The notes under the pieces: model-generated | Told to the model about the DNA's origin: nothing | The model's database searches: none | What the model saw: only the letters and a program-made list of their open reading frames with translations | NCBI RefSeq assembly: GCF_039555335.1 | Contig: NC_092631.1 | Span: 9,733,701-9,797,700, forward strand | Source of the DNA: Amphiura filiformis | Lineage: Eukaryota > Echinodermata > Ophiuroidea > Amphilepidida > Amphiuridae | Direction: 5' to 3' | Length of the DNA: 64,000 bases | Made by a program: the position numbers and the translations under genes | Shown here: positions 12,013 to 48,174 of the stretch, one piece after another | Numbering within the stretch: the first letter of the stretch is position 1 | Layout of the letters: every line of letters begins with the position of its first letter

Positions 12013-12472
12013 CCCAGTGGGCACAATTGGTTGCTACTATGTTGTGTCAACGTCAATATCTAACGTTGGACGACGGTTGCCTGGAGGATGGATATGAAAG
12101 TTTTTTTGACGCCAAAATAGAACGTTGGTGCGACGTCCACATTCAGCGTTGTGCAGACGTTAGCCAACGTCGATCCAACATTGACCCAACCCTAATAAAG
12201 ATGTAATTTGTGACGTTGGGCTAACATAATATCTTTGATGTTGGGCCAATGTTATTAATCCATCCATTGACCAACGTTAAACCAACCATTGTCCAACGTT
12301 GATCCAACCATTGGCAAGTAAGCCCAATGAGACGAAAAATCAAAAAAAAAGAAAGAATAATATTATTTAGTAGCATATACTCTGCTTACACAGAGTCTTA
12401 CACTTAATACTGTCTATATTACAACGGAAGCAAATTTCCTAGCTTAATTTTATACATAACACTTACCTTGAT

Positions 12473-12545
12473 GTACCTTCCGGGATTCGAACCCATGACC
12501 TTTGGTTTATGAGACTGATGCCCTACTGACTGAGCTAACGGGGTT
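12473..12545 (-). pseudogene. tRNA-Met(CAT)-like remnant
   Basis: On the minus strand the sequence has an A-box-like TTAGCTCAGTCAGTAGGGC, an anticodon loop CTCATAA (CAT) and a B-box GGGTTCGAATCCC. This is close to a eukaryotic elongator tRNA-Met. The anticodon stem (TCAGT against ACCAA) and the acceptor stem do not pair well, so it is a decayed tRNA or a tRNA-derived SINE head rather than a working tRNA gene. Confidence 0.55.
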
Positions 12546-12802
12546 TACATATTCGATGAAGTGTTTTAAGTTAATATAAGCAATATTTTGATGGCTAAAC
12601 CTACTAAAGTGAATTATTTAAAGGATATTGATCAAATTTACTGTAAATATTGATAACATTTACTAAATTTGTTGATTTTTTTTCTTTCTTTTTTTTTAAA
12701 TAAAAAATCTTACTGACGATTGAATTTCAAAGTTTTATTGTTATTATAAATATAATTATATATTTATTAGGTTTATATATTACATTATCACTAAGCATTA
12801 TA

Positions 12803-12843
12803 TTCATCACCATCATCATCATCATCATCACCATCATCATCAA

Positions 12844-12888
<45 letters not shown>

Positions 12889-12936
12889 GAGTTGTAACAT
12901 CATCATCATCCTCATCATTATTATTATTATTATTAG
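12803..12936. repeat. (CAT)n / (ATT)n trinucleotide microsatellite
   Basis: A near-continuous CAT repeat (12803-12912, with a short break at 12889-12897) grades into CATTATTATT. On the minus strand it reads as a run of methionines, which is a compositional artefact and not a protein. Confidence 0.95.
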
Positions 12937-13378
12937 TTTATCTAGTGGGCTTTTATAGTCTTTATTTAATGTTACACTTTAATACGCCTAGTAAATAGAA
13001 AATTTTGGACCAACTTGACCATTCCGATGACTTGGAAACAGTAGGCCTGTCAACTGTCATGCTGTTTACCAACGTTGGTCCGATATCGCAGACGGCATTC
13101 TGACCGTCATATTAAGGTTTGTGAGACGACGTTTCCCCAATCTCGGCGTAAGAAACTGTCACTTTAAGACAATATAAGCCAAATGCAACATATTTATCGT
13201 CGGTCGCACCGATGTCGCCAATGAAGTGTTACCGTACTTCAACGTTAGTATTGAGGTCATCGACAACCAGCGTATGGCAGACGATGTCGTCAAAGAAGTG
13301 TTACCTCAACGTTATATTGAGATCGTACAACAACCATTGCACGGCAGTCATTATGTGACCTTAATACAACATCTTTAT

Positions 13379-13945
13379 CAGGGGCGGCGGAACGATTTTG
13401 AAAGTGGGGGGCCAGTCAGGGTGATGTAAAAATCTAAATAATGGCCGCGAAGCGCCCATCGCGTTGCGCTTGCGCGGCACGGGGGTGGGGGTGTCTGAGG
13501 GGGATGTGCCCCCTGAGAAGTGAGAAACTTTTGCAAAATGAAGGCCCAATTGAAGCCATTTGGTGGACCATTCTGTCACTATTATTGTGTACAATTTTAG
13601 TTAGAAAAATCCGAAAATGGGTTAAATGAAGGCCCAAATTGAAGCCATTCGTGGATAACTTTTTCATTATAATTGTATAAATTATTGCTTTTTAGTGTTG
13701 GGTGTCCTAATACAGGGGAGTTGGAAATTTTGCAAAATGAAGGTCCAATTGAAGCCATTTCGTGCATCATTTTTACACTTTCTTTAAGCATGTTAAGGGT
13801 CTAGAATAGAGATTTGATTATTTATGTTCACCCGACATGTTACACACAGCACATTATGGGTTAAAAGTGGGGGGGCCAGGCCCCCCCGGTCAAAAAAGTG
13901 GAGGGGCCACTGGCCCCCCTGGCCCCCCCGCTTCCGCCGCCCATG
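13379..13945. mobile_element. hAT-type MITE, nested, 8-bp target duplication ATCTTTAT
   Basis: The element starts CAGGGGCGGCGGAACG and ends, inverted, CATGGGCGGCGGAAGCG. ATCTTTAT is duplicated exactly on both sides (13371-13378 and 13946-13953). An 8-bp duplication with CA(G/T)GGGCGGCGGA termini fits non-autonomous hAT elements. Inside, GAAGGCCCAATTGAAGCCAT recurs three times (about 13540, 13627 and 13739). It interrupts the larger 12013-14501 element, so it arrived later. Confidence 0.88.
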
Positions 13946-14879
13946 ATCTTTATCGCAGTTGTACCGATGTCGTCAACAAAGTGTTGCTTCAACGTTAGTA
14001 TTGAGGTCATACGACAACCATCGTACGGCAGACGTTGTTGCGATGTCTTCAATCATTGGTGTACCGATGTCGTCAATGAAGTGTTACCTCAACGTTATAT
14101 TGAAGTCGTACGACAACTGTCGCAGGGTAGTCAACAGGTGACGTTAATGCAACATCTTTATTGTCAGTTGTACTGATGTCGGCAATGAAGTGTTGCCTCA
14201 ACGTTATATTGAAGTCGCACGACAACTGTCGCAGGGTAGTCAACAGGTGACGTTAATGCAACATCTTTATTGTGACAGTTGTACTGATGTCGGCAATGAA
14301 GTGTTGCCTCAACGTTGTATTGAACTCGTACGACGATCGTCTTACGGCCGGCATTACCACAACGTTTGTGCGACGTTGTCACTAATAGGTGTACTGACGC
14401 CCTAGATTATTACTTGCGTTAACGTTGGAATTTGGTTGCCCGACGTCCGATCTTATTACAACGTCCATACAACGTAGTTTTTCCCGATTGTGCCCACTGG
14501 GAAAGCTGACACACAAGAGAAATGGTATGGGTTTTATAAAGGAAATCCCCAAGGCTTGATATAAGGGGTGTCATTTCCACCCCATGTGCATGAGGTACAG
14601 CCAAAAAAACAAGGTCAGCCCATATCAATAAAAGAAATATAAAAATGACCTCAAAATATTTTTCAGGACTAATAGCTAACACAGGTGTTCTCAACAGGCA
14701 GCCCACCAGCCCTTGATAACAACTCTAAAATATACAGGAAAATTGGAAGGAATTGAGGTATTTGGCCCTCAAACATGTATTCAATGTATGTGGCCCATGA
14801 GCATATAAAGTTGATAACCCCTGAGCTGACATATTGAGCACTTATAGACAGCCGAGACATATGAAAAATGTATATGCCT

Positions 14880-15165: not shown

Positions 15166-16054
15166 ACATGATCATGATGATTATCATCAATAAAAACACT
15201 ATAGACTACTAGTATCACAGCGTATAAATGTCAGTAATTCATAAGGAATTAGTCACATTTATAAGAAACATTTATATGTTGTGCTTGAAAGGGACACCGT
15301 TCTATGATATACATAAGTTTTAAAGAATTCAATTTTCAAAATATATCGGGTCACTTAACCAAAATAATCAAATCAATACATTTTCTATTCTTACACATTC
15401 AGGTGTATGCTATGTTACTTTGATCAGTGTTACAAACGCTGTAGAAAATAAATATTTTGTAAAACAAGATGTCGTGTGAACTGTGTCATTCTATTGGATC
15501 ATATTAAATACTCCCTTGTGTACATGCATGTACAAGTAACCAGCTTAGGGATGAAATCAAAACTCAACCGCCAGTTCCGTCCGGTTGCTATTGTTTAGAA
15601 CAATTTTACGAGTGCTATAGCTGCCTCATACCATAGTAGGGTCAAAGCAGCATAAAATAATTTAAGTTCGTTAATTACTCCAGTACGTTTTTTGAGATGT
15701 TATTAATATGATTTGTACTTCACTTATATTTTGGGTTTTGGTTTTGGTAAAAACGTTTAATAACATTTTAATGTCAGGTTTTATAAAGGTCATGAAAATG
15801 TTTTAAAAACGTTTTCTATGAAAACACACAAACTTTTTTAAATGTCAAAATGTTATTGTAAAATATTTTGTACGCAACATAAAACAAAATGTTTCATACA
15901 AATTATTTTACAAGCCAAAAAAAAAGGGGGGCAAGTAATGGCAAGCCAATTGGGAATGGGAAGTAATTTTGCACACATTTATGGGGGCATATTTTAAATA
16001 AAGTATGTTTAAAAAGGCTTATGAAAACAGTACAGAATCATTTAAATATGCACA
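15166..16054. repeat. Non-genic stretch with a decayed copy of the AAAACGTTTT element (about 15727-15905)
   Basis: Within it, TTTATAAAGGTCATGAAAATG, AAAACGTTTTCTATGAAAACAC and ATGTTATTGTAAAATATTTTG match the interior order of the CCCAGCAAACAC family (for example 45360-45480). Its own terminal repeats are lost. The remaining sequence holds no supported gene. Confidence 0.5.
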
Positions 16055-16068
16055 ATTTATTATTATTA

Positions 16069-16103
<35 letters not shown>

Positions 16104-17258: not shown

Positions 17259-17376
17259 GTCAGAATCCATCATGTAGGCATATCCCTTTGCCCCGCTGTA
17301 ACTAAATACCTTCAGAAGACATATAGAGTTGTCTAAAGGAAAATATTAATGTGCATGCATCCAAAAGTCAGTATAT

Positions 17377-19687: not shown

Positions 19688-19697
19688 ATCTATGAAT

Positions 19698-22600
19698 CTA
19701 GCGTTTCTCTTTTGTAACCCAGACCTCTTCCTTTGGAGAGGTCACAAACCCATAGACTGGCTCTACCACCTGTCCCTCAACAATGTTGAACTTAAAAGCC
19801 CGACACAAAACAGCTAGAAATACTGCAATTTCCGCATAGGCAAAACGGTAGCCAGGGCATATTCTCTTGCCGGAAAAACCAAAAGGTTGGAAGGCAAACT
19901 TGTCTCTCTTCTTCCTGTTCTCTGGACTGAAGCGTTCTGGATCAAACCTAACAGGGAAAAAAAGACAACAAAAAAAACCAGATTGAACAGATTGGCTATA
20001 TAATAGATTCTTAACAGTGCAATGTCCAATCCATCAATCCAGGGCAATGTTCATAAGTAGCACATTTTTTTTTTTTTTTAATCTGTGAAAGTAGCTTTAG
20101 CAATATACTTAGTAGTTGTATTATCCCATGATATAATGAGGATATGTACAACTTTCTATTTCCCATACAACTTTCTATTTCCCATCCTTTGGCGGCACCA
20201 GGAATTTTTTTCGGGGGCATTGGGGTAATTTGAGGGGTTTTGCCAAAAACATATTTGAGGGGGGCTAATGCCCCCTTGCCCCCCCCGTAGCGCTGCCACT
20301 GCAGATTTCACTAAGATTACCAAATCATCAAAATGTCGCTTCAGCCACTCGGTAGGTGAACTAATACTCTTATTTATCAATTCAAATTTTGCAGTCTTAA
20401 AAGTGGATCATTAAACTTGAAATTTTTGAATAAATTTGTCAGGTAGGCCATCTGTAACCCTTTTTAAATCCAAAGCCTGAACCCCATACCGTTACTTGCT
20501 CCACTCGCTTCGCTCCATGTGGTCATTGGCAATTCAGCCCAGCCTCCCCACTCAACACAGTTGAGTAGTTACCAAATCTTTCAACGACCCCCTTTGCAAT
20601 GATTTTCCTTCAAATTTACCCCCCTTTTTCATGCAGACTTAAAAAAATATTTGTAAATTCATGTCAACTCCTCTATTTGGAAGTAGTCATCTTTACTTTT
20701 ATAATACATCAACAATAAATCTCTGTTCAGACATATAGCTGAGTTGTTATCATGGCAGGGATAAATTTCAAATAGCACTTACTTTGCTGGGTGGGGCCAT
20801 TGTTTTTCATCTTGAAGTGTCACACCTAATGCGTGGATGACTGGGGTCTGTATAGGTAAGAAAAGTAAGTATCATAGAATGGTGCAAAAATCAAACCAAA
20901 AATAATACAGGGCAAGTCCAAATGTTCTGTACCAACATTTTAAAAAAGCTTCCAAATATCTAGTATCATTCAAATCATAATCCAAAATTGCAGGATATGA
21001 GACGGACTGGTTACTGGTATATTGTCTATTGTACAGTTGTATGACACAGCTTTATAAATAATAGATAATAGTGAATACTACCTCTTTTAGTTTGCAAAAA
21101 AGATCATTTGAAACGACCAGCCCCGGGGGGGGGGGGGGCACTCAACTTTAGAAGTGACGGGTATGTGCCTACCAGCGTCACGAAGTAGGGGCCTATCAGG
21201 TACAAAGCGTTATTTTAAAAAAGGGGGTCATTGGGTACAAACAAAATAAAAAAGGGGGTCATTGGGTATAATATTTTGAAAAGGGGGTCATTGAGTAAAA
21301 ATTTTAAAAAAGGGTCAGGTCAAAATTTGTGAAAAGATGGAGCAAAATTTTGAAAGTTTCAGCAAAATTTTGAAAAAATGGAGCAAAATTTGAAAGTTTC
21401 GGCATTATTTTTTGGCATTTTGATGAAGCTATTCTAGAAAGTCTAGAAAAAAGGGGGTCATTGGGTAGCCGCAACTAAAAAAAGGGGGGTCATCGGGTAT
21501 GACTTTTAAAAAAGGGGTCATCGGGTATAGTCGACTTCAAAAGAGGGGCCTATTGACAGGCACATACCGTCACTTCCAAAGTTGAGTGCCCCCCCCCCCA
21601 GGACCAGCCAAAACCATGGATGTTGAATATTATGTGTATTAGTAAATTTTGTTCAGTCACACTGAATACTTACACCTTTAGGTATAACATGTCCTCCCAG
21701 CTTGGTGTCAGTGTCGTCACATCTTGCAGCCCAAGGACCCAAGATAGAAGCCCTAAGACTCTCATCTAGTACTTGTCTCAAGTAACTATGATATGATTCA
21801 ATGCAAAAATATATAAGTAAATACCAATGCTTCAATATTAATTGAAATGATAAGTACATCACAGTGTAATGTTATGCAGAAAACTTTTAACTGAAAATTA
21901 GCATGCTACAAAACAAAAAATACAAATTACACTATGCAGTAATCATGGTAATCGTAGTGAAACCTTAACCAGAATCTGCTAGATTTTGAAACTTGTATCT
22001 ATTTGAATGGAGTGAAATCATTTTGCTGTTTATACCTTGCACAAAATATCAACTTTGGAAAGTCAGTCAAGTTGACTCAACAGTCATGCTATTATTTTTT
22101 CTATCATGTAAAAGGCTGGTGAAAGTGTTTTGGAAATTGAATGAAATCCCAACATCATATCAGAAAACAAAAGGTTCACTTTTGGGCCTATATGTTAACT
22201 TTGTTTGATATGATTTTGTTCTGCTTTTTAACCAGCCTTTTTAATGTTAGAAAAGATAATAGTATGACTGTTGAATTTCCCAAGTTGATATTTCGTGCAA
22301 GGTATAACCAGCTGGGTAATACACACCCACCCAGCAAACACAAAACGTTTCGACATCATTCGCAAAAGGTTATAAAAGGTTGTCAGAAAACGTTTAATGT
22401 CAGGTTATATAAAGGGTATATACGTTTTCATAACATTCGAAAACATTTTTGATAACCTACTGCAAATATTTTAACATAATGTTATTTAAGTGTGGACAAA
22501 ATATTTGGCAAAAAATGTTTGCAAAAAATATTTTACAGTAACATTTTGAAAACATTTTAAAAATATTGTTGTAGTGTGTTTTCATACAAAACATTTTAAA

Positions 22601-25600
22601 ACGTTTTCATGACCTTTACATTACCCGACATAGACCTAATGTTATTAAAACGTTTGTACCTAAACCAAAACCCAATATATAACTTATTTAATACGTTTTA
22701 AAAACATTTTTGTGTTTGCTGGGCATGTGTTGACTGTATAATACTCACACAAGTTGTGTGATATGACTTGGGTCCACGTCTTCGTCACCCAAAACACTCT
22801 CTATCTCTTTGTGCAGTTTCTTCTGAATATCTTGATGAGTTGCGATGAAATACAAAGTCCATGCCAGCACTATTGCAGAAAAACATGGATAACAGAAACA
22901 GCTGATTAAATACTCCTTGCTAATATTGAAGGGCAGTTCCCACACTTTATTTTGCTCACAACTCGGGGACAAATTATTGCAGCAATATTCCGATGTAACC
23001 TAGACTCAAATTGAACTTTTTAAATATAGTCAAATAGCTACCACATTGAACCAACTGCCAGATTTTGAAACTCAATGATATGGAGTTAAACCATTGTACA
23101 AGGCATGTATATACGAAATTTTGCAAATTATTTGTCTCATGGCAGGGATCCCAGTCTGAATTAATAGGCTCCTGAAATGCTGAATTTTTGGACCGAGGAC
23201 TCTGGGTCTGAGACCTATTCAAACAGCCTTCAAACTCAGAAAGAGGGACATTTTTTGTCTTCATATCTTTTTCTCAAAAGGATGAATACACACTCACTGT
23301 TGCCAGAAGTATGGAATCCACCAATGACATAGGTTATAGCATCATCCTTGATTTGAGTTTCTGGAAAATTGTTCTCCAGTAGAACATCAATGAATAGTTG
23401 ACGCTCAGGTGGTGGAGGGTTGTCACGTCTCTGCTTGATGATGGCATCAATGGTCGACAGCATCTGGGCTCTTGCTGAAAGATATATGTGAGAGAAACTA
23501 TCATTGGTTAAAAATGCAATTGTTAACAGAGTTCAGACCCAAATTTGGGCTGATATTCATCTGGATGAAAAACTTTGTTACCTTAGTAGGCCGATGCAAG
23601 GAATGCCTACCTTTTTTGAATGCCTTGTCCCTATCAGTGCCTTCCTCAGGAAGTCCATGTGCAAGACTATGTTCCATCTCATGCCAACACTAAATGATAA
23701 GGGACAAAAAGGGAATATCAGCTTAATGTTTAATGTAAAAAGTCTGTATTTGGTTCAAATATTCTGAAGCCAGTCAAAACAGGCATTCATTTAATAAAAC
23801 ATTTTGTATTTGGCCGTTGCGATTCTGAGAGAGGAAGTGACCCTGATTAGTATAAACGATTCACCAGCAGTCCACTGTAGCTTGATCTGTGTGGTTTAGT
23901 TGGATTTAGCTGTAGATTAGAAATATCTATCATTATAATTGTCGATTCACCTGGGCTTTTCTATCTTCTAAATAAATATTAACAACAGGCAGGACGTGTA
24001 TAAAAATGTCTGCAAAACACTGCAAATGGAGAGATATACAATGTATTACAACAAGCTACTTACAATATCATAATTCTTTCTGAATGCCAAGGAAACTTTG
24101 TCATCCTTGAAGTAATCTCCAAATGATGTTCTTGCGATTCCTTTAAGTACCAATGCTGTACTATATTGCTGCAAAGGAATATGTTCATCCTTGGGTAGTG
24201 TCTTCATCTTGGTCACTAGCTCAGCTACCAACTATTTAAAATCAGGAAATTGCCAATTGAACACAGTTTTGCCAAGTTTGTCTCAGAACACAAGTTTGCC
24301 CTGCTTAAATACTAATCACATCAAACCTTTGTCTTGTCTTTTCAATGTGAGGTGTATGTGCTGGCTAGAGTTAATATATTGTAGCCTATTCATAAAGGTA
24401 TCTTGTATTGTAGTATCTAGGTACTGGTCATATCTTTTACAGAAAAATGTTACAAACTAAAATATTGTCTTAAAAATGCTGATAAATTATTTTACAAAAA
24501 TAATTTTAACGTTCAATGTCATTTGCAAATTCATAAGTCGGTGCTTGTTCATTGAAATATCATATATCCTGGAACTGTTGAAATATATAACATGAAAAAA
24601 AGACAAAAAGTTTAAAGTTAAAGGCTTATTCAGTGATCCTAAAATTGTGAAGAGTAAGTCATTAAAATTGTCATACTTATCCACTATCAGGGTATGTTAG
24701 CACCCCGAGGTTAGCACATCTATATGACACTATAACAATGGTGCCTAAATCTGAATTCTGATGATTTTTACGATCCTCCGGATGATCACTGAATATGCCT
24801 TTAAGCATGTGGCCAATGCAAAAGTCATCGAACATACCTCGTTGAATGTGCCCATGTAATAACGCACAGCATCATGGCTGAAGGCTTTGTCATAGAGATT
24901 GCGTCTATTCCTTCCGTCAGCACCATTTGCATATTGTATACTGTTTGCCCCAAAAAGTGGTTGGAATAGAGCAAATAAATAAGCTGAAAATCAAGTTTAC
25001 ACACAAATGCTTGAAATCAGCTCCTGTAAGAATACCGGATCATAGAATTTGATATGTAGGCATGTTACCTTTTTGTTGATGACATTCAAACAATTTTTTC
25101 TGGCCTTAGCATCTGATTAGCAACTTCTTGAAACACACTTTAGTGAGGGCAAATTCCATGTTTTTTACAGATTCTTGTCATTTTGGTTGAATTTAAATAA
25201 ATAATTTACATTGTATACCTCATTGGATTAGACCAGGTTATAATAGTTCACTCAAGTCGGAACAAATCATAAAAAATTACATTGCCTAATCCTAAATTGG
25301 TTTGTTATACAGTGTACCCCTCTATTACCATCAATCCGTCTTAAAATGTGGGTGCCGACAATCGGCCTGAATCGTCAAAAAGTGGCTGAGAAGAACAACA
25401 ACAAAAAATTGGCAAATGGTGGAGGGACACGTCTCCCTGCTCCCCCCCCCCCCCGACTGACGCACATGCCTTCAGAAAAACATCACCAGATGATAATATG
25501 GTTATCAGTTTAGAAATAGATATCCAAATCATTTCTTAATTTAAACAGTCAATCAAAAATTCAATTAAAGAACATTTTTGATTGCAATATGTATTCATTT

Positions 25601-26565
25601 GTTAATTTATGACCATCCAGTGATACAGCCATGCAGTATTTTTTTTAGGGGGGAAACCATGTACTTACGTGGTTTATCAAATATAGTCTGGTGTTCTCTG
25701 AAGAGCTCTGGTGATGCAATACTAACAGCTAACTTTGTTCCCCACCAGAAAGATGCGATAGGTCCGTAGTCTTCATGTAGATTCATCAGGAATTCATGCA
25801 TACTACCAGCCTTTCCAATATCTGGGATATTGCCATCCCTAAACATGGCATCAAAATAATGATTGCATTTGCAAGTTTGTCTGTTTATGATGAGCATTAT
25901 TGTATGCAAATTAATGTATGTATATTTGAGAGAGTAAGAGATCGAGTGAAGGTGAGAGAAGTATGACAGCGAAAGAAAAAAGTTCTTATGAACGACTGTT
26001 GGTTTTGCATGTGCCTCTGTGCCAAAAAAGTGTGATAATTCATACTTTCTGGTGAAGATACTGAGATATAACTTACTTAGGATCTGATGGATCCAGGCCA
26101 GGGATTGTGGTTACATGTTTGGAGCCCTATAATGAAAGAAAGAAAAGCAGATTCAGGCAACTTTCACCTGTAATTTCTACAAGTGTGGCTTGATAGCAAT
26201 GATATGATGAGTACTGTATAATGTGATTCAAGAGAATGTCTCTTTCCACAGTAGGTCCTTAACAGCATCTAAACAAATTGTTTAGAACATTCGCAAAAGT
26301 ACAACCATATTGGTTAAAGGGTAGACATGGTATTGTTGGTCGAAGCAACTATAACTCATAAACTTAAATTAATATTTATTGACATTTATATATTATTTAC
26401 ATTATATCTATATGAAGAATTAGGTTCATTCAGTGAAAATTAAATCTGTCTAATCCATCTTTATTTTGAATGAAGAATTAATTATGTACTTACTGGGTAG
26501 AAATAAATAACAGCCCCAATAAGCACTGTCACAACTGTGATAGCAAATATGACAAAGACAAGCAT
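19698..26565 (-). CDS. CYP20A1: CYP20A1-like cytochrome P450, complete, 11 coding exons
   Basis: Exons in transcript order: 26494-26565, 26077-26126, 25669-25838, 24838-24983, 24064-24231, 23611-23689, 23298-23474, 22749-22869, 21674-21785, 20783-20847, 19698-19947. All have GT/AG borders and join in frame to 469 residues (vertebrate CYP20A1 is about 462). The start MLVFVIFAITVV is a hydrophobic anchor (about residues 1-23) ending YFYP. IPGLDPSDPKDGNIPDI and GSMHEFLMNLHEDYGP follow (about 30-70). The I-helix motif is GGFHTS (about 281-286), with His where most P450s have an acid. The K-helix ExxR is ESLR, and the haem loop is GFSGKRICPG with the thiolate at Cys417. The C-terminus is VEGQVVEPVYGFVTSP. 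CYP20A1 is an orphan ER-anchored monooxygenase; its substrate is unknown. Introns 8 and 9 carry transposons (22330-22723, 21123-21601). Confidence 0.93.
20160..20310. repeat. GC-rich hAT-like MITE fragment in the P450's last intron
   Basis: TTGGCGGCACCAGGAA at about 20190 and GTAGCGCTGCCACTG at about 20287 resemble the CAGTGGCGGCACC ends of the hAT-type element at 34415-34582, with GGGGGCATTGGGG and CCCCCTTGCCCCCC inside. The left terminus is degraded and no target duplication is evident. Just left, ACAACTTTCTATTTCCCAT is repeated in tandem (about 20149-20184). Confidence 0.45.
21123..21601. mobile_element. hAT-like GC-rich MITE in a P450 intron, 8-bp duplication GACCAGCC
   Basis: The left end is CCGGGGG(n)CACTCAACTTT and the right end AAAGTTGAGTGCCCCC(n)AG. 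GACCAGCC is present on both sides (21115-21122 and 21602-21609). The interior repeats AAAAAGGGGGTCATTGGGTA at least five times. The family recurs at 49656-49966. It sits in the intron between exons 20783-20847 and 21674-21785, far enough from the splice sites not to disturb them. Confidence 0.78.
22330..22723. mobile_element. CCCAGCAAACAC-family MITE (394 bp) in a P450 intron
   Basis: The element begins CCCAGCAAACACAAAACGTT and ends TTTTTGTGTTTGCTGGG, with CA on each side (22328-22329, 22724-22725). The interior has many A-CGTTT and AAACATTTT motifs, ATAACCT and TTTGCAAAAAATA blocks. It lies only 25 bp from the end of exon 22749-22869, beyond the donor site. It is shorter than the approximately 690 bp copies and lacks their internal second TIR pair. 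Confidence 0.85.
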
Positions 26566-26958: not shown

Positions 26959-27647
26959 CCCAGCAAACACAAAACGTTTTCGACATCATTCGCAAAGGGT
27001 TATAAAAGATTGTCAGAAAATGTTTAAATGTCGGGTTATATAAAGGGTATATTAAGAGTATAAAACGTTTTCATAACCTTAAAAAGCATTTTTGATAATC
27101 TACTGCTCAGCAAACAAAAATGTTTTACAGAAAACGTTTAAATGTCGGGTTATATAAAGGGTATAAAAACGTTTTAATAACATTCCAAAAACATTCTTGA
27201 AAACTTGATACAAAACATTCTAAACAGAATGTTATATTGTGGTTGAAAAAATATTTTGCGAAAAATGTTTGCCCAAAATATTTTCAATAACGTTTTAAAA
27301 ACGTTTTCATGACCTTTATATAACCCGACATTTAAATGTTATTAAAAGGTTTTGAAAAAACATTTTAAGAACATTTCTGTGTTTGCTGGGTTCAAATATT
27401 TTAACATAATGTTATTTAAGTTTTGACACAATATTTGGCAAAATGTTTGCAAAAATAGTTTACAATAACATTTTTGAAAACATTTAAAAATATTGTTGTA
27501 GTGTGTTTTCATACAAAACGTTTTAAAACGTTATCATGACCTTTATATAACCCGACATTTTAATGTTATTAAAACGTTTTTACCTAAACCAAAAGCCAAA
27601 ATATAACTTATTTAAAATGTTTTTAAAACGTGTTTGTGTTTGCTGGG
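26959..27647. mobile_element. CCCAGCAAACAC-family composite MITE (689 bp), copy A
   Basis: The ends CCCAGCAAACACAAAACGTT and ACGTGTTTGTGTTTGCTGGG are flanked by AT (26957-26958, 27648-27649). Internally there is a second pair of ends: CTCAGCAAACAAAAATG near 27106 and TTTCTGTGTTTGCTGGG near 27390. The whole therefore looks like two elements, one inside the other. AAAACGTTTT-like palindromes recur throughout. It is nearly identical to 31667-32362 and 41013-41697. Confidence 0.88.
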
Positions 27648-31641: not shown

Positions 31642-31666
31642 AGCTACACTACTTCATCAGCACCAA

Positions 31667-32362
31667 CCCAGCAAACACAAAGCGTTTTCGACATCATTCG
31701 CAAAAGGTTATAAAAGGTTGTCAGAAAACGTTTAAATGTCGGGTTATATAAAGGGTATATTAAGAGTATAAAACATTTTCATAACCTTAAAAAACATTTT
31801 TTGATAATCTACTACTCAGCAAACAAAAATCTTTTACAGAAAACGTTTCAATGTCGGATTATATAAAGGGTATAAAAACGTTTTAATAACATTCCAAAAA
31901 CATTCTTGAAAACTTGATACAAAACATTCTAAACAGAATGTTATTTTGGGAGTTGAAAAATATTTTGCGAAAAATGTTTGCCCAAAATATTTTCAATAAC
32001 GTTTTAAAAACGTTTTCATGACCTTTGTATAACCTGACATTTAAATGTTATTAAAAGGTTTTGAAAAAAAAAACATTTTAAGAACATTTCTGTGTTTGCT
32101 GGGTTCAAATATTTTAACATAATGTTATTTAAGTATTGACATAATATTTTGCAAAAATATTTGTAAAAATAGTTTACAGTAACATTTTGTGAAAACATTT
32201 AAAAATATTGTTGTAGTGTGTTTTCATACAAAACGTTTTAAAACGTTATCATTACCTTTATATAACCCGACATTTTAATGTTATTAAAACGTTTTTACCT
32301 AAACCAAAAGCCAAAATATAACTTATTTAAAACGTTTTTAAAACGTTTTTGTGTTTGCTGGG
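31667..32362. mobile_element. CCCAGCAAACAC-family composite MITE, copy B, inserted in the satellite
   Basis: The same termini and internal second pair of ends as the copy at 26959. The surrounding satellite (CACCAA before, AATATCAGCAG after, against the undisturbed CACCAATATCAGCAG) shows that exactly AA was duplicated. This is the clearest evidence that this family makes 2-bp target duplications. No ORF of significance is present. Confidence 0.9.
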
Positions 32363-34860
32363 AATATCAGCAGAAGGTAGCTACTCTATTTCATCAACAC
32401 CAATATCAGCAGTAGATAGCTACACTACTTCACCAACACAAAAATCAGCAATAGACAGCTTACTTACTTCATCAACACCAATATCAGCAGTAGGTAGCTA
32501 CAGCTACACTACTTCATCAACACCAATATCAGCAGTAGGTAGCTACACTACTTCATCAATATCAGCAGTAGGTAGCTACACTACTTCATCAACACCAATA
32601 TCAGCAGTAGGTAGCTACACTACTTCATCAACACAAATATCAGCAGTAGATAGCTACACTGCTTCACCAACACAAAAATCAACAATAGATAGCATATATT
32701 GGTGCTGATGAAGAAGTGAATATATCTACTGCTGATATTGTTGTTGATGAAGTATTATAGCTTAGATAACCACACCACGTCATCAACACCTAAATCAGCA
32801 GTAGATAGCCACTCTAATTCATCAACACTAAAATCAGCAGTAGGTAGCTACACTACTTCATCAGCAAAAATATCAACAGAAGGTAGCTACTCTATTTCAT
32901 CAACACCAATATCAGCAGTAGGTAGCTACACTACTTCATCAACACCAATATCAGCAGTAGATAGCTACACTGCTTCACCAACACAAAAATCAACAATAGA
33001 TAGCATATATTGGTGCTGATGAAGAAGTGAATATATCTACTGCTGATATTGGTGTTGATGAAGTAGTGTAGCTACCCACGGCTGATATTGGTGTTGATGA
33101 AGTAGTATAGCTATCTACTAGTGGTATTAGTGTTGATGTAGTGTAGCTCCTTACTGCTAATGTTGGTGTTGATGAAGTAGTGAAACTATTACCGCCTATA
33201 TCATGTATATTGGTGCTGATGAAATAATGAAGCTACCTACTGCTGATATTGGTGTTGATGAAGTAGTGAAACTATCTACTGCTGATCTTGGTGTTAATTG
33301 ATGAAGTAGTGTAGCTACCTAGTGCTGATATTTGTGCTGATGAAGTAGGTTAACTATCTATTGCTGGTTTTGGGGGTTGATAAAGTGATGTAGCTATCTA
33401 CTGCTGATATTGATGCTGATGAAGTAGGTAAGCTATCTGTTGTTGATTTGATGTTGTTGAAGTACTGTAGTGAAACTATCTACTGCTAATATTGGTGTTA
33501 ATGACGAAATGTAGCTACCTACTGTTGATATTGCTGTTGATAAGGTAGTGTAGCAATATACTGCTGATATTGGTATTAATGAAATAATGAAGCTATACGT
33601 ACTACTAAATATTGGTGCTGATGAAGTAGTGAAGCTACCCACTGCTGATTGGTATTGATGAAATAGTGAAGCTATCTACCGCTGATATTGGTAAGCTCTC
33701 TATTGCTGATTTTGGTGTTGATGAAGTGGTACATGGAATGGTTAACTTCCGCTGATATTGGTGTTGTTGAAGTAGTGAAGCTATCTACTGCTGATATTGG
33801 TGCTGGGTAGGTTAACTATCTATTGCTGGTTTTGGGGTTGATAAAGTGATATAGTGATCTACTGCTGATAATGGTGTTGATGAAATAGCGTAGCGACTTA
33901 CTGCTGATATTGGTACTGATGAAGTAGATAAGCTATCTATTGCTGATATTTGTGGTATTGATGAAGTAGTCTAGCTACCTACTGCTGATATTGGTGCTGA
34001 TGAAGAAGTGAATCTATCTACTGCTGATTTTGGTGTTGATGAAGTATAGTGTAGCTACCCACTGCTGATTGAAGTAGTGAAGCTACCTACCGCTAATATT
34101 GGTGTTGATGAAGTAGTGAAGCTATCTACTGCTGATATTGGTGTTGGTGAAGTAGTGTAGCTATCTACTGCTGATATTGGTGTTGATGAAGTAGTGAAGC
34201 TATCTACTGCTGATATTGTTGTTGATGAAGTAGGCACGATATCTATTGCTGATATTGGTGCTGATGAAATAGTGCACCTACTTACTGCTGATATCGGTTC
34301 TAATGACGTAGGTAAGCTCTCTATAGTGCTAATTTTGGTATTGATGAAGTGATGTGGATATCTACCGCTGATATTGGTGTTGATGAAATAAGTAAGCTAT
34401 CTACTGCTAATCAGTGGCGGCACCATGTTTTTTTTTTCGGGGGGGGCAAAATGAACTTATTTTGCACAAAATTGCCGCAAAAAGTGGAAATTTGTGTGAT
34501 TTGTGTTTTATTGCCTCAAAAGTGGATGGGACAAACCGGAGGGCAAGAAAAATATTGGGGATGCCCCCTTGCCCCCCCACTGCTGCTAATATTGATGTTG
34601 ATGAAGTAGTGTAGCTACCTACTGCTGATATTGGTGATGATGAAGTAGGTAAGCTAATTTTGGAGTTGATAAAGTGGTGTGGTTATCTACGGCTGATATT
34701 GGTGTTGATGATGAAGTAGTGTAGCTACCTACTGCTGATATTGGTGTTGATGAAGTAGTAGAGGTGTTGATGAAGTCGTGTGGTATCTACCGCTGATATT
34801 GGTGTTGATGAAGTAGTGTAGCTATCTACTGCTAATATTGGTTTTGTTGATATTAGGATA
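32363..34860. repeat. 39-bp satellite, right block, with orientation switches
   Basis: From 32363 to about 32700 units read in the ATATCAGCAGTAGGTAGCTA orientation. At about 32700-32755 they flip, at 32756-33010 they are inverted again, and from about 33010 to 34860 they read in the TGATATTGGTGTTGATGAAG orientation. Divergence between units is moderate. A hAT-type insertion sits at 34415-34582. The complementary-strand peptide reading (13 residues, Ser/Thr-rich) has no start context, no splice logic and frequent breaks. Confidence 0.92.
34415..34582. mobile_element. 168-bp hAT-type MITE in the satellite, duplication CTGCTAAT
   Basis: The left end CAGTGGCGGCACC and the right end GCCCCCCCACTG are flanked by CTGCTAAT on both sides (34407-34414, 34583-34590). 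CTGCTAAT is part of the satellite unit, so it is seen once in uninterrupted units. The interior is G-rich at the left and C-rich at the right and has no coding capacity. Confidence 0.82.
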
Positions 34861-36070
34861 TTGGTGTTGGGTTTTTTAGGTATCTAGTTATCCATATCCA
34901 TTCCATTAATTAGTCTACGTGTATGGACCTAATTAGCTTAATATAGTGTCCAAACACAGATGTGAAGTTGTATGTCTTAACTGTATCACTTATTCATGTT
35001 TGACAGTTTAGAAGTGTGAAGAAAGTATTTAAAACAGTTTACATGATGTCAAAAAATGTTGAAAGGAAAAAACTTTTTCTGTAATTTCCAAATTTAGGGT
35101 CGGCATTCTTTTGTATAAAAACCTTTTCCAGATTAGGATCGGTTGGATGAGGACAATCAAGCATCCTTTTTTGGGCCTAGGCTGTTAAACTTATTAAAAT
35201 TATTCATACAAGTTATGTTTTTTTAATTCAAGAAAAATAATGATGACTTGATGTATTGATAATGCTAAAAGAACAGTAATATCATTTTACATTAATTTGC
35301 ATCATTTCAACATTTTTATGACCTATGATATTCAATTTTTAAAGAACAAGAAATTACATGACTAATGGTGAATTTATGACTTCGCGATTTATCGTGATTT
35401 AATTAGTCATTTACTATACTTGATTACTAATTGAATGACTAATTAAATGACTAATTTTTTATCGAAAATCTGATTTGCAATATTTTTGGCAACTTTTGAA
35501 AATGTTTTGAAAATGCTTTATCTCATCATTTGATTTTCCTACCAACCTTTATGTGTGCTCTTATGAAAATTTTACGAAAGCGTTTTTGTGTTTGCTGGGA
35601 TACTATTTTGGTATTTTCAATAGACGTGTTTTGATGGTCCAATATTAATATAATTACACCGTATTGTAATAAGACAAAAGGAGCTATCATTTCCGCATGG
35701 ATTGTTTATAAAGAGCTATTGTTTATCATTGTTAACATCGTTAAGGTGTGGATATATTAACTGATCGTAAAAAGTAATTAGTTGCAACGTGTATTAACGA
35801 AATATTCTGAAATAATACCTTTTGTTGCGTCCTAAATACTGACTTGCCGTGATATAATTTTAAAATAATTTTAAAAAAAATTTGATTTTGTTTGTACGAA
35901 TCAGCTTACAAATTGCCACACTGAAATGTATTGATGTAAACTGGTTCATGAAAGAGTAACGATAACCGCTACTTGCTTAATGATTTTAATTGCATAGGTA
36001 ATTTTAACGTTGGGTCTAATATCAACAGTCAAAATACCGGTAATTGGACACAATTGTATCAAATTTGAGT
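34861..36070. other. AT-rich stretch, one solo CCCAGCAAACAC-family end at 35575-35599
   Basis: No gene is recognised. AAGCGTTTTTGTGTTTGCTGGG at about 35578-35599 is the right terminus of the CCCAGCAAACAC family, without an identifiable left partner. Around 35390-35460 a TGACTAATTAAATGACTAAT motif repeats imperfectly. Confidence 0.4.
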
Positions 36071-36350: not shown

Positions 36351-36994
36351 GCGTTTATTGCGTTTCGACAGTATTTTTGTGGGACATGAGAGCACCTCAG
36401 ACCTATCGAATTGCATTCTGAATACGAAGCATGTCTTTCTGATATCAAATAATTTTCATTTTTTTAAATCACAATATAATACAAATTTTATGACAAATTA
36501 TAAAAATTTGATATTTTTCAAATTTTTGATATATAACAGTCCTCGAAGTAAATTATATAAATCTAATGATATATTCTTAAAGTGTGTGTAGCAGGGAGGA
36601 AAAGCCGACGGTCAATTGAAAATTTTGACCTTTCATATTGAAGATATGGATTTTTTCCCAAAAAGACCTAAATTTTGTTGGTGTTTTGGGAAAAAAATCC
36701 ATATCTTCAATGCGAAAGGTCAAAATTTTCATTTGATCGTCGGCTTTTCATCCCACCTACATACACTTTAAGTATAAATCATCAGATTTATAAAGTTTAC
36801 TTCAAGTACTGTTAAATATCAAAAATATCAATTTTTAATGATTTGCCATAAAATGTGTATCAAATTGCGAATTTCAAAAATCAAAATTATTTGATATCAG
36901 AATGACATTCTTCGTATTCAGAATGCAATTCGATATGTCTGATGTGCTCTAATGTCCCAAAATAAATACTGTCCAAACGTTCATACCCCATCCC
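36350..36994. mobile_element. Palindromic TTAA-flanked MITE, copy 1
   Basis: Nearly the whole element is one inverted repeat with arms of about 300 bp centred near 36670. The left arm GACAGTATTTTTGTGGGACA, AATTGCATTCTGAATACGAA, AAAGCCGACGGTCAATTGAA is mirrored on the right. The right end is CATACCCCATCCC followed by TTAA (36995-36998). The left terminus merges with a microsatellite. TTAA flanks point to piggyBac- or Kolobok-type mobilisation. Full copy at 48468-49127. Confidence 0.82.
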
Positions 36995-41012: not shown

Positions 41013-41697
41013 CCCAGCAAACACAAAACGTTTTCGACATTATTCACAAAAGGTTATAAAAGGTTGTCAGAAAATGTTTAAATGTCGGGTTATATAAAGG
41101 GTATATTAAGAGTATAAAACGTTTTCATAACCTTAAAAAATATTTTATGATAATCTACTGCTCAGCAAACAAAAATGTTTTTCAGAAAACGTTTAAATGT
41201 CGGGTTATATAAAGGGTATAAAAACGTTTTAATAAAATTCTAAAAACATTCTTGTGATACAAAACATTTAAACAGAATGTTATTTTGGGGTTGAAAAAAT
41301 ATTTTGCGAAAAATGTTTGCCCAAAATATTTTCAATAACGTTTTAAGAACGTTTTCATGACCTTTATATAACCCGACATTTAAATGTTATTAAAAGGTTT
41401 TGAAAAAACATTTTAAGAACATTTCTGTGTTTGCTGGGTTCAAATATTTTAACATAATGTTATTTAAGTATTGACACAATATTTGGCAAAGATGTTTGCA
41501 AAAATAGTTTACAATAACATTTTTTGAAAACATTTAAAAATATTGTTGTAGTGTGTTTTCACACAAAACGTTCTAAAACGTTATCATGACCTTTATATAA
41601 CCCGACATTTTAATGTTATTAAAACGTTTTTACCTAAACCAAAAGTCAAAATATAACTTATTTAAAACGTTTTTAAAACGTTTTTGTGTTTGCTGGG
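41013..41697. mobile_element. CCCAGCAAACAC-family composite MITE (685 bp), copy C
   Basis: The termini CCCAGCAAACACAAAACGTT and AAAACGTTTTTGTGTTTGCT-GGG are flanked by AT (41011-41012, 41698-41699). It has the same inner pair of ends as copies A and B, with small deletions. Confidence 0.88.
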
Positions 41698-42503: not shown

Positions 42504-45500
42504 CTAGTTCTTTGATTCACCGGCTGAGTGTTCAGTTCTTTCAGGAGCAACTTCAGGAGGTCTCATACAACGAAACATATTACGGAATGCCGCTTTAAAA
42601 TCCGGATGTCGTGTGCCATACACCAACGGGTTGATGCAGACATTACTTTGTAAGAGTATAGACAACGGTGGTACCAACCAGTAGTTTCCAACTGATGCTG
42701 GTAAAATAAGGAAGATTGTATACGGAGAAATGCAGGCGAGAAAGGCTGCGACAACGATGAGGAGGTTGATTGTCAATTGCATCTGTCTTTTGCTTACCGC
42801 TGCTTTTTGGCGGGAATTATTTGTCGTGCTCGATCCGCCAGTTGAAGTTGAAGCAGCGGCTTGTAGTTTTTTACTGTGATCTCTCACGTGTTTCCAGATT
42901 TTGAAATAGGCAACTGCAATTGTTGTTAAAGGAATTGGGAACATGGACACAAAAAGCACAAAGTTGTAAATGCTATTAAACCAGTGGTCGGTATTCCACG
43001 AGCATGCAGAATAACGTTCATTGAATTGGAGAAAATCAGGAACGATAAATATTGGGAATGTTGTACACGCTATTGGAATTAACCAGGATACAGCTATCAA
43101 GATTCCCGTACGAAAGTCGGAAAGATAAACTTGGTATTTTGAATGTGGGAGGACAATAAGAGCACATCGGCACACGGCGGTTCCCGCCATGCTATACAGG
43201 CTTGCCATTGTACACATCATTAGGGATGCGGCAGTGTAAATGCAAAATCCATTAGCAAGAGGCCATCCATGAACACTGAGAATTCCAAGTGCATAAAATG
43301 GTAGGTTGATGCTGGTTAGGAGATCAGCGATGGATAGATTGACGACGAATGAGTTGGTTTTGGTCCGCAACTTTTTGACCATTGCACAAGCCGCTACAAC
43401 CATAACGTTACCGACGAAGCCTGTGAGGGTATTAAAAAAATAAGCAATTTAATAAAATCAGTTATTTGATACAGAATTGAATTGAATTTTATAAAGTTAA
43501 TTTATTTTGTCCTGTTTCGATTCGGTGCAATGATAACACTGAATTTGAATTGAATCAGCAGATTCAGGTGACTAAGATTTGATTTTGAATTGGATCGTAA
43601 TGGCAGTAAACTGAATCTATAAATATAAATAGGGCCTAAGGCTACTATATACGTATATAAACGCAAAAACATTTGCACATCACGCACACAACCCAACAAC
43701 GCCATCCCACACACCCCACATGCCATATGTTCATTATCGCAATGGTGTGTAGAATTGCATTGTGTTTCATTGATAAAGGATATTCCTGTATCTGAAAATA
43801 CAACATTACTGCTCGTATTTATTTTACCAACACACAGTGACATAAACACACACATACTTAAGCGCCAAAGGGACCCATTTGACTTTTTACAAACCAATCA
43901 AGACTTCATCATTTACACCTGAACGAGACAGTGTTAGAAATATGTTTTTTTACAGCGTTTGCGATAATCTGGTAAGGCAGAGACAATGGTATTAATAAAA
44001 GTTGTTCCCGCTACTGGTAAGACAACATTACTAATGTATTTGCTTATCAATACAAGCACTAACTAAATCAATTTTGAAATTGAAATTTTGACCTTGAAAG
44101 AATTGCTTCCGATTATCATTAACTGTATAAAATAACAGGTCTAGAATCAATCATAAAAATAAAAATGGAATAATGCTTCAGTCGAGATGAATCATGTCTT
44201 ATATAGATATTTCGAAGCTATAAATTGTTTCAAGGATATTTTAATTTAGTTGGCAAGTGTTTATAGTAAGTGTTGTGTGTTTGTATTGTGTAAGACTGCT
44301 TTGAATCTCTAGTCTTTTACAATTACCTGTCAAATCGTTACGTGGCCACGCCTTAAAAATTCGAAGCAGGAAGGCCCCAGGAAAAAAATCGCAGTTCAGG
44401 TATATTCGTCTTGCTAATCTTTCACCTGTTTGATCCAATCAATAGCACCAATCCCTATTGTGCTATTGACTGTTAAAACAAAGATTACAATGACGATTAG
44501 ATATGACCTGTGGTTTTGGTTGCTCCAGGTGTATTTCTGCTTCGATTTTTAGGTACTGTCCACGTAATGTATAGATGGACTGAAATAATTTATAGCAGCC
44601 TTGAAGCGGCAGGCAAGGTGCAACATGAAGCACAATTATCTGGTACCTCAACTTGAATTCATTCCACAACTTAATTGGACTCCCGATTGGTCTTTGATGG
44701 AAGAAACTTCACACAAATCACAAGTGTATGGATTCCCATACATATATTTTTGTTCTGATGTTGGTATTGTTCACGTTTCGTATAAACAACAAATATTAAA
44801 ATAAGAATAAAAAGAAAGACAGACAGAGGAATGTATTCCTTGAATCTGGAATGTATGAATGCAAACTACATGTATTGGAATTGAGTGTTTGAGTCAAAAT
44901 ATATTTTGTCACCTTCGGTTTGATTGCTTTGATTTTAATTTTAGTTAAATCAGAACAAATTGAGGTGATTCAGAATTGATTCTTGATTGGATCAGGGATG
45001 TGAGAGAATAGAATCAAATTATAGTAATATAATATATATAGTTATAATAGTAATGACCACGATTTGAATGGAATCTTCGAGTATTAGTAAGATTATACGA
45101 TGTTTTGACAGCTCATTATATGCATTACAGATGTTGAAATTGCGAACTACATGTTCAAATTTAGGAAATGTCGAAATTATTCGGTGGTAAAAGTAAATCA
45201 GAATGTGTCACGGTAAAATTCGACAGACAGGCTAACTTACAAAACAAGTTTTCGACACATACGTAGACATAAACGTATTTTAGGTGAGATTTTCTGACTC
45301 GGCAAACACAACGTTATAAACTGGTTATATTTTGAGTTTTGATAAAAAGGTTTTAATAACATTAAATTGGCTTTATAAAGGTCATGAAAACGTTTTAGAA
45401 ACGTTTTGTATGAAAACACACTGCAACAACATTTTTAAAATGTTGTCAAAATGTCAAGTTATTGTAAAATATTGTGGCAATATTTTCCCCCAAATATTCC

Positions 45501-45973
45501 GTCAACACTATTAGGCCTAAGTATAACAGTATGGTAAAGTAAGTTTGCGGTAAGTTTTCAAAAGATAGGTTTGAATTTTATGAAATCGTTTTATACCCCC
45601 GTTTATACCATTTATATACACTTTTATTTAACCCGACATTTAAACATTTTCTGGCAACCTTTTGGAACCTTTTGCGAATAATGTCGAAAACGTTTTGTGT
45701 TTGTTGGGAATAATATGATTATTATGAAAGTAGGCTACAACATAAAAGAAAAAAAAAACACTTACCAATAATTGCAATAACACACAGAATAAACGCGTAC
45801 ACAACCCGTTGACCGTAGCTAAAAAATACAACAATACCATCATCAGATTCAGAATCATCATATTCTCCACTGGTATCACAATATGAAACATTAAAATCGT
45901 CTGCAGAAATATTGGCGGGAATCGGTGTTGTCAAACATAAAGGAGATGACATCGCTGGAGTGGTGACGTTCAT
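42504..45973 (-). CDS. Class A (rhodopsin-family) G-protein-coupled receptor, two exons
   Basis: Exon 1 is 45766-45973 and exon 2 is 42504-43420. The donor G/GTAAGT and acceptor CACAG/GC join a codon for Gly70 within TM1, giving 374 residues. The N-terminus has three N-glycosylation sites (N2, N21, N28). TM1 reads IIGFVGNVMVV (GN at 73-74), and TM2 is NLSIADL (Asp102). Cys129 and Cys209 are placed for the extracellular disulfide. The DRY position at the end of TM3 is CRC (153-155), TM6 has FLACISPY (Cys299, Pro302), and TM7 ends CINPLVYG (NPxxY, 333-337) followed by RHPDFKAAF. The overall look is closest to melatonin-receptor/Moody-type receptors. The ligand is unknown, and the DRY change may alter G-protein coupling. 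The 2.3 kb intron contains a CCCAGCAAACAC-family relic. Confidence 0.88.
45298..45698. mobile_element. Degenerate CCCAGCAAACAC-family MITE in the receptor intron
   Basis: The left end CTCGGCAAACACAACGTT and the right end AAAACGTTTTGTGTTTGTTGGG are diverged from consensus. The interior has TTTATAAAGGTCATGAAAACG and TTTTGTATGAAAACACACTG in family order. It lies 68 bp from receptor exon 1, on its 3' side. It is older than copies A-C, judging by divergence. Confidence 0.75.
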
Positions 45974-46285
45974 CTTGAATGCTTTAGAAACGTGTGTTAA
46001 TTGCTTTTAAGATTTATTGTGCACCATACATCATTTCCAACCCAGATATTTAACAAGAGCACGCAATCACTGAAGTTAAAATGTTTTGGATATAATGCTT
46101 TATGTCTCTGCTTCCAGTTGACGTAATTCTGTTTCTCGATACAGTTATATGATCGCGCGCCCAAGGTTGAACTCTAGTTCGGCAGATGTTACAAAAAGTG
46201 CATTATTATTTCATTGTCGAGGTGACTTAGTTTATATCTCGCATGTATGTCAGTTGCTTTTGTGAAAATCGAGATTTGTTCTCCA

Positions 46286-48174
46286 CACTGCAAAAAAAAG
46301 TGTTCAACATTAGAACACCACCTGTGCAAAATTTGACACACTGTATTCAATTTCATAATGCTTGGTGTTCGTAACCATAATGCTTAGTGTTCGTAACATA
46401 ACGTCAGAGGAAACTTTTAAACACATAGTGTTTGAAGTGTTCAACATTAGAACACCACCTGTTCAAATTTTGACATACTGTATTCAATTTCAGAATGCTT
46501 AGTGTTCGTAACATAATGTCAGAGGAAACTTTTAACACATAGTGTTTGAAATGTTCAGCATTAGAACACCACCTGTTCAAATTCGACATATAGGCCTATT
46601 CGACATACTGCATTCACTTTTGTAATGCTTAGTGTTCGTAACATAACGTCAGAGGAAACTTTTAAACACATAGTGTTTGATCATTCACTAAATGTTCATA
46701 AAATGAACACTGTATGTTTAATCTACAATTTTCACAACACTATTATAGGCATATAGGCCTAGCATAAAATGCTCGCCTGATTGTAAAACCATTTTTATAA
46801 TTAGTTACTATTATTTATTGAGATCATCAGTTGTTCTCATTTTATTTTACACAGTCCTGCAGCTCGCACGGAATGAAAGAACATTGAACATGTTGAACAT
46901 TTTGCGGTTTATATAAAAATACCTGACAATAGGCCTATTATGGTAGGCTTACGTCGAATATTGAAATATAGGCCTATACCGTACACTCCAAATAACTCGG
47001 GGTGCACGCCCATAAAATCGTGTTGTAGGCCTACAGCTCAGGTGTTCACAACTTTTACACTTAATGAACATGTAATGTGTTCGTTTTGAACACTGTATGT
47101 ATGTAGGCTATATTTATCACGTGCCGGGCCACGCATGCGTCGTTGCACCGTTAATAGAACAGACGATTTCATCGGAGTGAGAAACCGTGATTTGGACGGG
47201 GATTTGGAGGTGAGATTTTACCCACAAAATACCATTTTATTTAAAAACAAATATATCGAACGTGTTCTCCACATATCATAGAACAATGAGACTAAAAATG
47301 TAAATTCATCGTTTTTGTATTGCGTGGTTTTAGTGCATTTTAATGAATGCGCAGTAAGCTTATCAATCATGACCATGCAATAGTCACATGGTCAGACAGT
47401 GTGCAAATCTGCAATTTGATATAGGTCTAATGTGAATTATACTGTAGGCCTAAACCTCTGACGAGTGTGTCTTACAACTGGTCAGTATGCGGGTCGATTT
47501 CATGCCATGGCATGCCTGATGGAATAGATGTAATTGCGATGTTGCACTGGTCAAACATGCATAGCCATAGGTCTAGGTTTGCTGTAATTTACTACGGTAC
47601 TGAGTCTGTTGTTACAATTAAATTTCGGACAAAGGTGTACATTTATACATTGACCCATTGTACCTTGCTTTGCGTAGCCGTATTGCATCCCTTTTTGTAA
47701 CACTTATTGAACATATGTAGGCCTAAGTGTCGTATGTATATGCACACCATCTTGTTCCAGACTTGAACACTAAGTGTATGACATTTGTGAACACAACTCA
47801 GTGTTCAAAGATTAGAACACAAGTGTTCTAAATGATTAGAACACAAGTGTTCTAAAGCTGAACACATTTGATTTTGAACATGTAAATGTGTTCTTAAAGT
47901 GTTACATGGCATTGAACATGTAAATGTGTTAGGATTTGGAACACTTTGTGTTCAAAGTTTTAACATTAGGTGTTCAAAACATGAACACACCATGTTCACA
48001 AAATGACGACAATATGTTAACATCAAGTGTTCAAAAGGTGAACACACGTGTTCACAAATTATACTGTTGTGTTAAAGTCTGGAACACTTGGTGTTCACAA
48101 TCAGTACACTTTTATATGTTCAATAAGTGTTACAATTTTTAGTGTTCTAATTCTGAACACTTTTTTTTGCAGTG
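46286..48174. mobile_element. 1.9 kb inverted-repeat element saturated with GTGTTC/GAACAC motifs
   Basis: The ends CACTGCAAAAAAAAGTGTTC and, inverted, CACTGCAAAAAAAAGTGTTC (right end finishing at 48174) match. CA lies on each outer side (46284-46285, 48175-48176), compatible with a 2-bp duplication. The left 420 bp and right 420 bp are filled with GTGTTC, GAACAC and ATTAGAACACC units (well over twenty), including three near-copies of AACATAA(C/T)GTCAGAGGAAAC. The central approximately 1 kb is non-repetitive with no recognised gene. Confidence 0.75.

Follow-up and report, generated by a model that had tools for sequence, protein, structure and literature searches.

Elements and genes of the window

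The window, a 64,000-nt stretch of Amphiura filiformis DNA, contains four types of inverted-repeat element, each carrying many or several copies of its own short word. Type A, with the word AAAACGTTTT, is present as five copies (A1 to A5), some of them with a nested unit, and as lesser pieces; types B, C and D have different words. The elements and their parts, in order of position, are the following.

12013 to 14501, strand not assigned: type B, ends CCCAGTGGGCAC, target duplication AA, word CAACGTTG
15724 to 15869, minus strand: type A fragment, about 81% identity over about 150 bp (blastn of A1 and A4 against the window)
22330 to 22723, plus strand: A1 (type A), 394 bp, without nested unit, target duplication CA
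26959 to 27647, plus strand: A2 (type A), 689 bp, composite with a nested A-type unit, target duplication AT
27106 to 27390, plus strand: nested A-type unit of A2 (alignment and boundary test)
29796 to 31641, strand not assigned: type D, ends GGTCGAATCCAACC, 4-bp target duplication AGCT, word TATTCGTAGGTAAC
31667 to 32362, plus strand: A3 (type A), 696 bp, within a 39-bp tandem array, target duplication AA
31815 to 32103, plus strand: nested A-type unit of A3 (alignment and boundary test)
35582 to 35599, plus strand: type A solo right end, partner end not recognised
41013 to 41697, plus strand: A4 (type A), 685 bp, composite, target duplication AT
41161 to 41438, plus strand: nested A-type unit of A4 (alignment and boundary test)
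45298 to 45708, minus strand: A5 (type A), diverged, without nested unit, duplication inexact (GA / AA)
46286 to 48174, strand not assigned: type C, ends CACTGCAAAAAAAAGTGTTC, target duplication CA, word GTGTTC/GAACAC

The 39-bp tandem array (GTAGCTACACTACTTCATCAACACC-like; 28874 to 34850) switches orientation and hosts both D and A3. Pieces of cytochrome P450 lie on both strands (6687 to 7250, 19698 to 20033 and 25607 to 26110; two are C-terminal and nearly identical by eye, and one is N-terminal), which suggests duplicated genes. A gene for a rhodopsin-type receptor (7tm_1; 42504 to 43448, minus strand) is located between A4 and A5, and inverted blocks of 152 bases, 86% complementary, are found at 36374 to 36965.

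Type A copies and the nested unit

A1 to A4 have CCCAGCAAACAC on both sides, beginning CCCAG, and are 90-97% identical to one another; A5 is 83-85% identical to these four (gaps excluded). The unit nested in A2, A3 and A4 starts with CTCAGCAAAC and finishes with GTTTGCTGGG, the same site being empty in A1 and A5; both A5 and the nested unit have CTC rather than CCC at one end. The filled site equals the empty site plus exactly two flanking bases (TG, or TA in A3, on the left; TT on the right), from which we infer that one A element inserted into another and duplicated 2 bp, that one of these bases changed later, and that the composite then spread.

A second word, of 18 bases (TGTCGGGTTATATAAAGG), is found at all four ends of each of A2, A3 and A4, in A4 at distances of 70, 37, 60 and 90 bases. 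The window contains 16 sites of this second word when up to three mismatches are allowed (0.07 expected), all of them in A copies or in the A fragment at 15.7 kb.

Types B, C and D

Both ends of type B begin CCCAG. Within it, CAACGT/ACGTTG is restricted to 12013-12330, 13051-13376 and 13948-14501, the last of which includes 109-bp tandem units (14060-14334), and is missing from two gaps, 12331-13050 and 13377-13947. The first gap contains a TCA repeat, and the overall top words of B are those of this microsatellite. The same gap holds a stretch that looks tRNA-like by eye (12476-12546, minus strand) and could be a SINE; ARAGORN identified no tRNA anywhere in the window, and an Rfam search of the window had no match. 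The second gap corresponds to a separate inverted-repeat insertion (13378-13947, GGGGCGGCGGAA..TTCCGCCGCCC), which is a transposon of another kind and has a direct repeat of 8 bases, or 9 by eye (ATCTTTATC), on its two sides.

Type C ends in CACTGC..GCAGTG. Its exact word occurs 10 times in the left 435 bp, 4 times in the middle 969 and 20 times in the right 485 (23.0, 4.1 and 41.2 per kb, compared with 0.32 in the rest of the window), that is, in subterminal arrays in both orientations. Tandem units of 114 bp are present at 46379-46680. Another word, GGCCTA, has 14 copies inside C (46286-48174), on both strands, against 0.14 expected.

Type D has eight sparse copies of an GTATTCGTAGGTAAC-like word between ends (GGTCGAATCC..GGATTCGACC) that show neither the CA..TG nor the CCC..GGG pattern of CACTA/EnSpm elements, and a blastn search of D against the window revealed no terminal direct repeats.

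Target duplications and empty sites

We tested duplication lengths of 1 to 12 at each insertion. Six of eight insertions have exact 2-bp duplications (A1 CA, A2 AT, A3 AA, A4 AT, B AA, C CA), for which the chance of at least six in eight is 4.5e-6; in the remaining two, A5 and the nested unit (counted once), one of the two duplication bases matches. No exact duplication longer than 2 bp was found in A1 to A5, B or C. Empty sites are available for two A insertions, that of the nested unit and that of A3. When one mismatch at most is allowed, the window has 8 sites on its plus strand and 33 on its minus strand that match the joined (empty) sequence of A3, and those listed (at most 12 per strand) fall in the 39-bp array; for the joined site of D, which sits in the same array, the numbers are 5 and 13.

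Enrichment and coverage of the words

The number of word sites within the allowed mismatches was compared with the mean of 200 dinucleotide shuffles. Every element exceeds its shuffles: A1 has 14 sites against 2.5, A2 24 against 5.3, A3 24 against 5.7, A4 25 against 5.2, A5 10 against 2.0, B 18 against 1.5, C 40 against 9.3 and D 8 against 0.06. In C and D the words stand in both orientations, as the first-pass annotation of this DNA had stated (22 and 18 sites on the two strands of C, 5 and 3 on those of D), and its basic observation of inverted-repeat elements with over-represented words is borne out for A, B and C, which are bounded and go beyond dinucleotide shuffles.

A stricter test compared the best word of each segment with the best words of control segments of the same length from the window, after masking of the elements and long arrays. 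Segments in which no word qualified were excluded, which left 44 to 447 controls per setting, and low-complexity words were removed from the controls only. For 8-mers, A2 to A4 reach log10 P values of -17.1 to -19.6, beyond all controls (-10.6), and for 6-mers -10.5 to -11.0, which is not beyond controls (-11.2). B is beyond controls for 6-mers (ACGTTG, -17.0 versus -9.9) and not for 8-mers (-11.2 versus -11.9), and D is narrowly beyond them for 8-mers (-13.3 versus -10.4) and not for 6-mers (-7.1 versus -10.1). C exceeds controls at both lengths (GAACAC, -32.0; GTGTTCTA, -12.7 versus -10.4), and A1 and A5 taken alone at neither, the 6-mers of A5 being close to the control median. The top 8-mer in C, TAGGCCTA, differs from the word named in the first-pass annotation; among the control segments, those near 52-54 kb have AGGCCTAC as their top 8-mer too. 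Words cover about 35% of A1 to A4, 22% of A5, 19% of C, 6% of B and 6.5% of D, so that 'saturated' is an apt description of A and of the dense parts of C and B, and not of D.

A block at 3061-3500, once proposed as a possible fifth type, is made up of words resembling AATTCCGGCTGG mixed with words resembling ATGGAAGACA, one word standing in both orientations. Its words are indeed enriched, lying slightly beyond the best 400-bp controls (6-mer, -9.0 versus -8.0; 8-mer, -11.1 versus -10.8), and the window counts are 5 for AATTCCGG and 0 for CCGGAATT; with two words mixed and no clean bounded ends found, we do not retain the block as a bounded inverted-repeat element. A reverse-transcriptase remnant (RVT_1, 1871-2320) lies upstream of it.

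Comparison of the ends

End comparisons were scored against 20,000 shuffles and against random 20-mers of the window, each P value referring to a single comparison. A and B share 13 of 20 bases at their left ends (0 of 20,000 shuffles; 0.0008 for random window 20-mers) and 11 of 20 at their right ends (0.004 for shuffles; 0.006 for random window 20-mers), and the words of the two types have a common core, AACGTT. For A and C the agreement is 10/14 (shuffles, 0.009), with 11/20 on the left (0.012) and 10/20 on the right (0.05); for B and C it is 6/14 (0.16), with 9/20 (0.025) and 7/20 (0.19), respectively. The left end of D shows no agreement with the ends of A, B or C. Judged by shared ends and duplication length, as the first-pass annotation had proposed, A and B thus go together, their duplications being of the same length, and D drops out.

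Search for a transposase and for relatives

Pfam searches of all six frames found no transposase gene in B, C or D (E up to 1), and no transposase, including Transposase_21, in 12000-42001 (E up to 0.01); beyond these regions the search covered ten chosen open reading frames of the window. Weak matches under the family cut-offs (STAG 0.0031; DNA_pol_phi 0.026 and three weaker; GerD 0.00018) were set aside. Relatives outside the window were sought in prokaryote, plasmid and virus collections (A in several, B and C in one each), and none was found: the exact end patterns of A and of C have 0 matches each in viral contigs, and A4 has 0 matches in plasmids. Looser end patterns gave two matches for A and two for B in viral contigs and three for A in genome contigs; we take these seven loci to be chance matches, because AACGTT occurs once or twice in the up to about 960 bases viewed around each match and no array was seen. 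A literature search by end word returned nothing relevant among the matches listed, and the words of A, B and C are not themselves described in the TRC, CACTA and Ac literature examined. Because neither a transposase nor an outside relative was found, class membership is read from the ends and the duplications alone.

Classification of the elements

We consider it probable that A, B and C are non-autonomous cut-and-paste transposons, A and B of the TRC branch of CACTA/EnSpm and C CACTA-like, with D unrelated and the words serving as protein sites. For A and B, the termini and duplications make the animal TRC branch of the CACTA/EnSpm superfamily the best assignment. TRC elements were described by DeMarco and others as animal relatives of CACTA with inverted repeats starting CCC (PMC1636069). 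SmTRC1 has 2-bp direct repeats in 7 of 14 copies, the Aedes aegypti TRC end is CCCAGTCAAC with 2-bp duplications reported, and TRC protein relatives are reported in sea urchin (all PMC1636069); in Hydra, EnSpm-4N1_HM (CCCAGCCAACATTGAC, 2-bp duplications) was put in the TRC group (PMC4298943). A1 to A4 and B likewise have inverted repeats starting CCC at both ends and exact 2-bp duplications, so that A and B resemble SmTRC1, the Aedes aegypti TRC and Hydra Spongebob_HMa / EnSpm-4N1_HM in their CCC or CCCAG ends and in duplication length. The A forms are also short, as are the non-autonomous forms of Spongebob (433-496 bp; PMC4298943), and SmTRC1 has a repeated word as well, placed inside its inverted repeat (PMC1636069). 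A and B differ from the TRC elements of the cited passages in their repeated words and in that the Transposase_21 gene was not found here, and the word 'subterminal' does not appear in the text of PMC1636069.

Type C, with its CACTG ends, is best taken to be a CACTA-like relative. The groups CACTA, Mirage, Chapaev, Transib and related ones are described as having, for the most part, CA..TG termini and target duplications of 2 to 5 bp (PMC12730594), a description into which the CACTGC..GCAGTG ends of C fit, together with the CA on both sides of this single copy. Plant CACTA elements provide the model for the internal plan: their subterminal words, which are direct and inverted and differ from family to family, work in cis and are bound by a TNPA-like protein, and deletion derivatives still move if these cis determinants are retained (PMC2613891). 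As in Spm/En and Tgmt*, the arrays have a short word in both orientations and are subterminal and asymmetric, whereas Tgmt* has CACTA ends and a 3-bp duplication (PMC2613891) and the elements here have CCCAG or CACTG ends and 2 bp. Subterminal word arrays and short non-autonomous derivatives are features of Ac/Ds as well, Ac having transposase-bound subterminal hexamers, AAACGG (PMC3260210); hAT elements, however, usually make 8-bp duplications, with 5 to 7 in subgroups (PMC12730594), and the duplications of A, B and C are too short for that assignment.

The common plan put forward for all four types thus applies to A, B and C; D, with its unrelated ends and 4-bp duplication, takes no part in it, and a single family comprising all four is rejected on the same grounds. 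D is an unrelated non-autonomous element and a separate kind of transposon. Its GG..CC ends and AGCT duplication resemble the 5'-RR..YY-3' ends and 3 to 5-bp duplications of KolobokP (PMC9587614), which we mention as a lead only: D differs from the KolobokP of that source in having no terminal direct repeats, and its transposase was not found. For A, B and C the plan is real but largely expected within the CACTA (En/Spm) group. CACTA elements are already known to carry words in direct and inverted arrays near their termini, and word saturation therefore needs no new mechanism. The first-pass annotation held that deletion of a transposase gene would not be expected to give such saturation and that no standard name covers the elements. 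The former fails for CACTA, in which the words are cis-acting and deletion derivatives move (PMC2613891). The latter fails in the case of A and B, and probably in that of C, given that the sources cited above assign CCCAG ends combined with a 2-bp duplication to TRC elements of CACTA/EnSpm.

A different assignment, in which A and B would be placed in some other superfamily that makes 2-bp duplications (an ISL2EU/Harbinger-like or an undescribed lineage, for instance) and C in yet another, appears fairly unlikely to us. It draws on the finding that no transposase fixes the class of A, B or C, on the weak likeness between the ends of B and C, and on Harbinger-related elements, for which duplications of 0, 2 or 3 bp are possible (PMC12730594). 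Against it, the combination of CCCAG ends and a 2-bp duplication is reported in animal TRC/EnSpm elements (PMC1636069, PMC4298943), and the duplications here vary in sequence (CA, AT, AA, AT, AA, CA).

Origin and function of the word arrays

By analogy with TNPA of Spm/En, the repeated word would be a putative site for an element-encoded accessory protein that would help to unite the element ends, the proteins being provided by a partner element elsewhere in the genome. The short elements may seem saturated because they are made largely of two end regions, to which local tandem duplication (in B and C) and self-insertion (in A) could have added further sites. Of the causes suggested earlier for the arrays, binding sites are thus the best supported, through the analogy with CACTA and Ac, and amplification is present as a secondary process.

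That the arrays are functionless by-products of amplification, whether by slippage or by gap repair after excision that copied a short word locally, is unlikely, even though several observations point that way. There are the 109-bp tandem units of B (14060-14334) and the 114-bp units of C (46379-46680), and word copies in B (0.388 versus 0.306), left C (0.441 versus 0.275) and right C (0.362 versus 0.278) have flanks that resemble each other more than those of random positions do. Moreover, the word sites of A show no measurable extra conservation relative to other sites (Fisher p 0.18, 0.25, 0.56 and 0.73 for 4 of the 10 copy pairs, two of the four leaning the opposite way), and purifying selection on these sites is not supported by these tests. 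Yet the flanks are near random in A1 (0.375 versus 0.362) and D (0.290 versus 0.279), those in A4 are just a little above random (0.410 versus 0.368), the C word is clustered at both ends and in both orientations, and the presence of the second 18-base word at all four ends of A2, A3 and A4 counts against amplification.

Foldback elements, in which self-complementary words would form a long single-strand hairpin for excision or self-templated growth, are very improbable: A4 and right C do fold strongly as single strands (z -12.7 with 20 shuffles and -11.4 with 100, compared with +0.9 for one control stretch), but this is not evidence for a hairpin mechanism because long inverted ends and palindromic words give good folding in elements generally, the folding of 685 bases of D (30200-30884) is unremarkable (z -0.3), and the exact 2-bp duplications and clean empty sites match ordinary cut-and-paste.

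Helical phasing of the word sites is not claimed. The best local period is 11.5 bp in A4 and 10.0 in left C (equalled by 0.012 and 0.01 of random placements, respectively), and 11.0 in A1, 12.75 in right C and 12.25 in B (0.134, 0.067 and 0.03); these are five tests against a null without minimum spacing, and the periods disagree.

Implications

A pattern that looks exotic in the raw sequence thus receives an ordinary reading: the simplest account of the palindrome-filled miniature transposons of this window is that they are CACTA-type derivatives cut down to their end arrays. A more speculative proposal, which we hold to be doubtful, is that A, B and C come from one CMC lineage that kept its plan and duplication while the end word was repeatedly replaced, A and B having the core AACGTT with changed outer bases. 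Were this true, the window would show co-evolution of binding protein and site across co-resident families, and the nesting of an element in itself would be a way to double its sites. If the genome has partner elements, A and B would permit a direct test of joint change in binding protein and end word.
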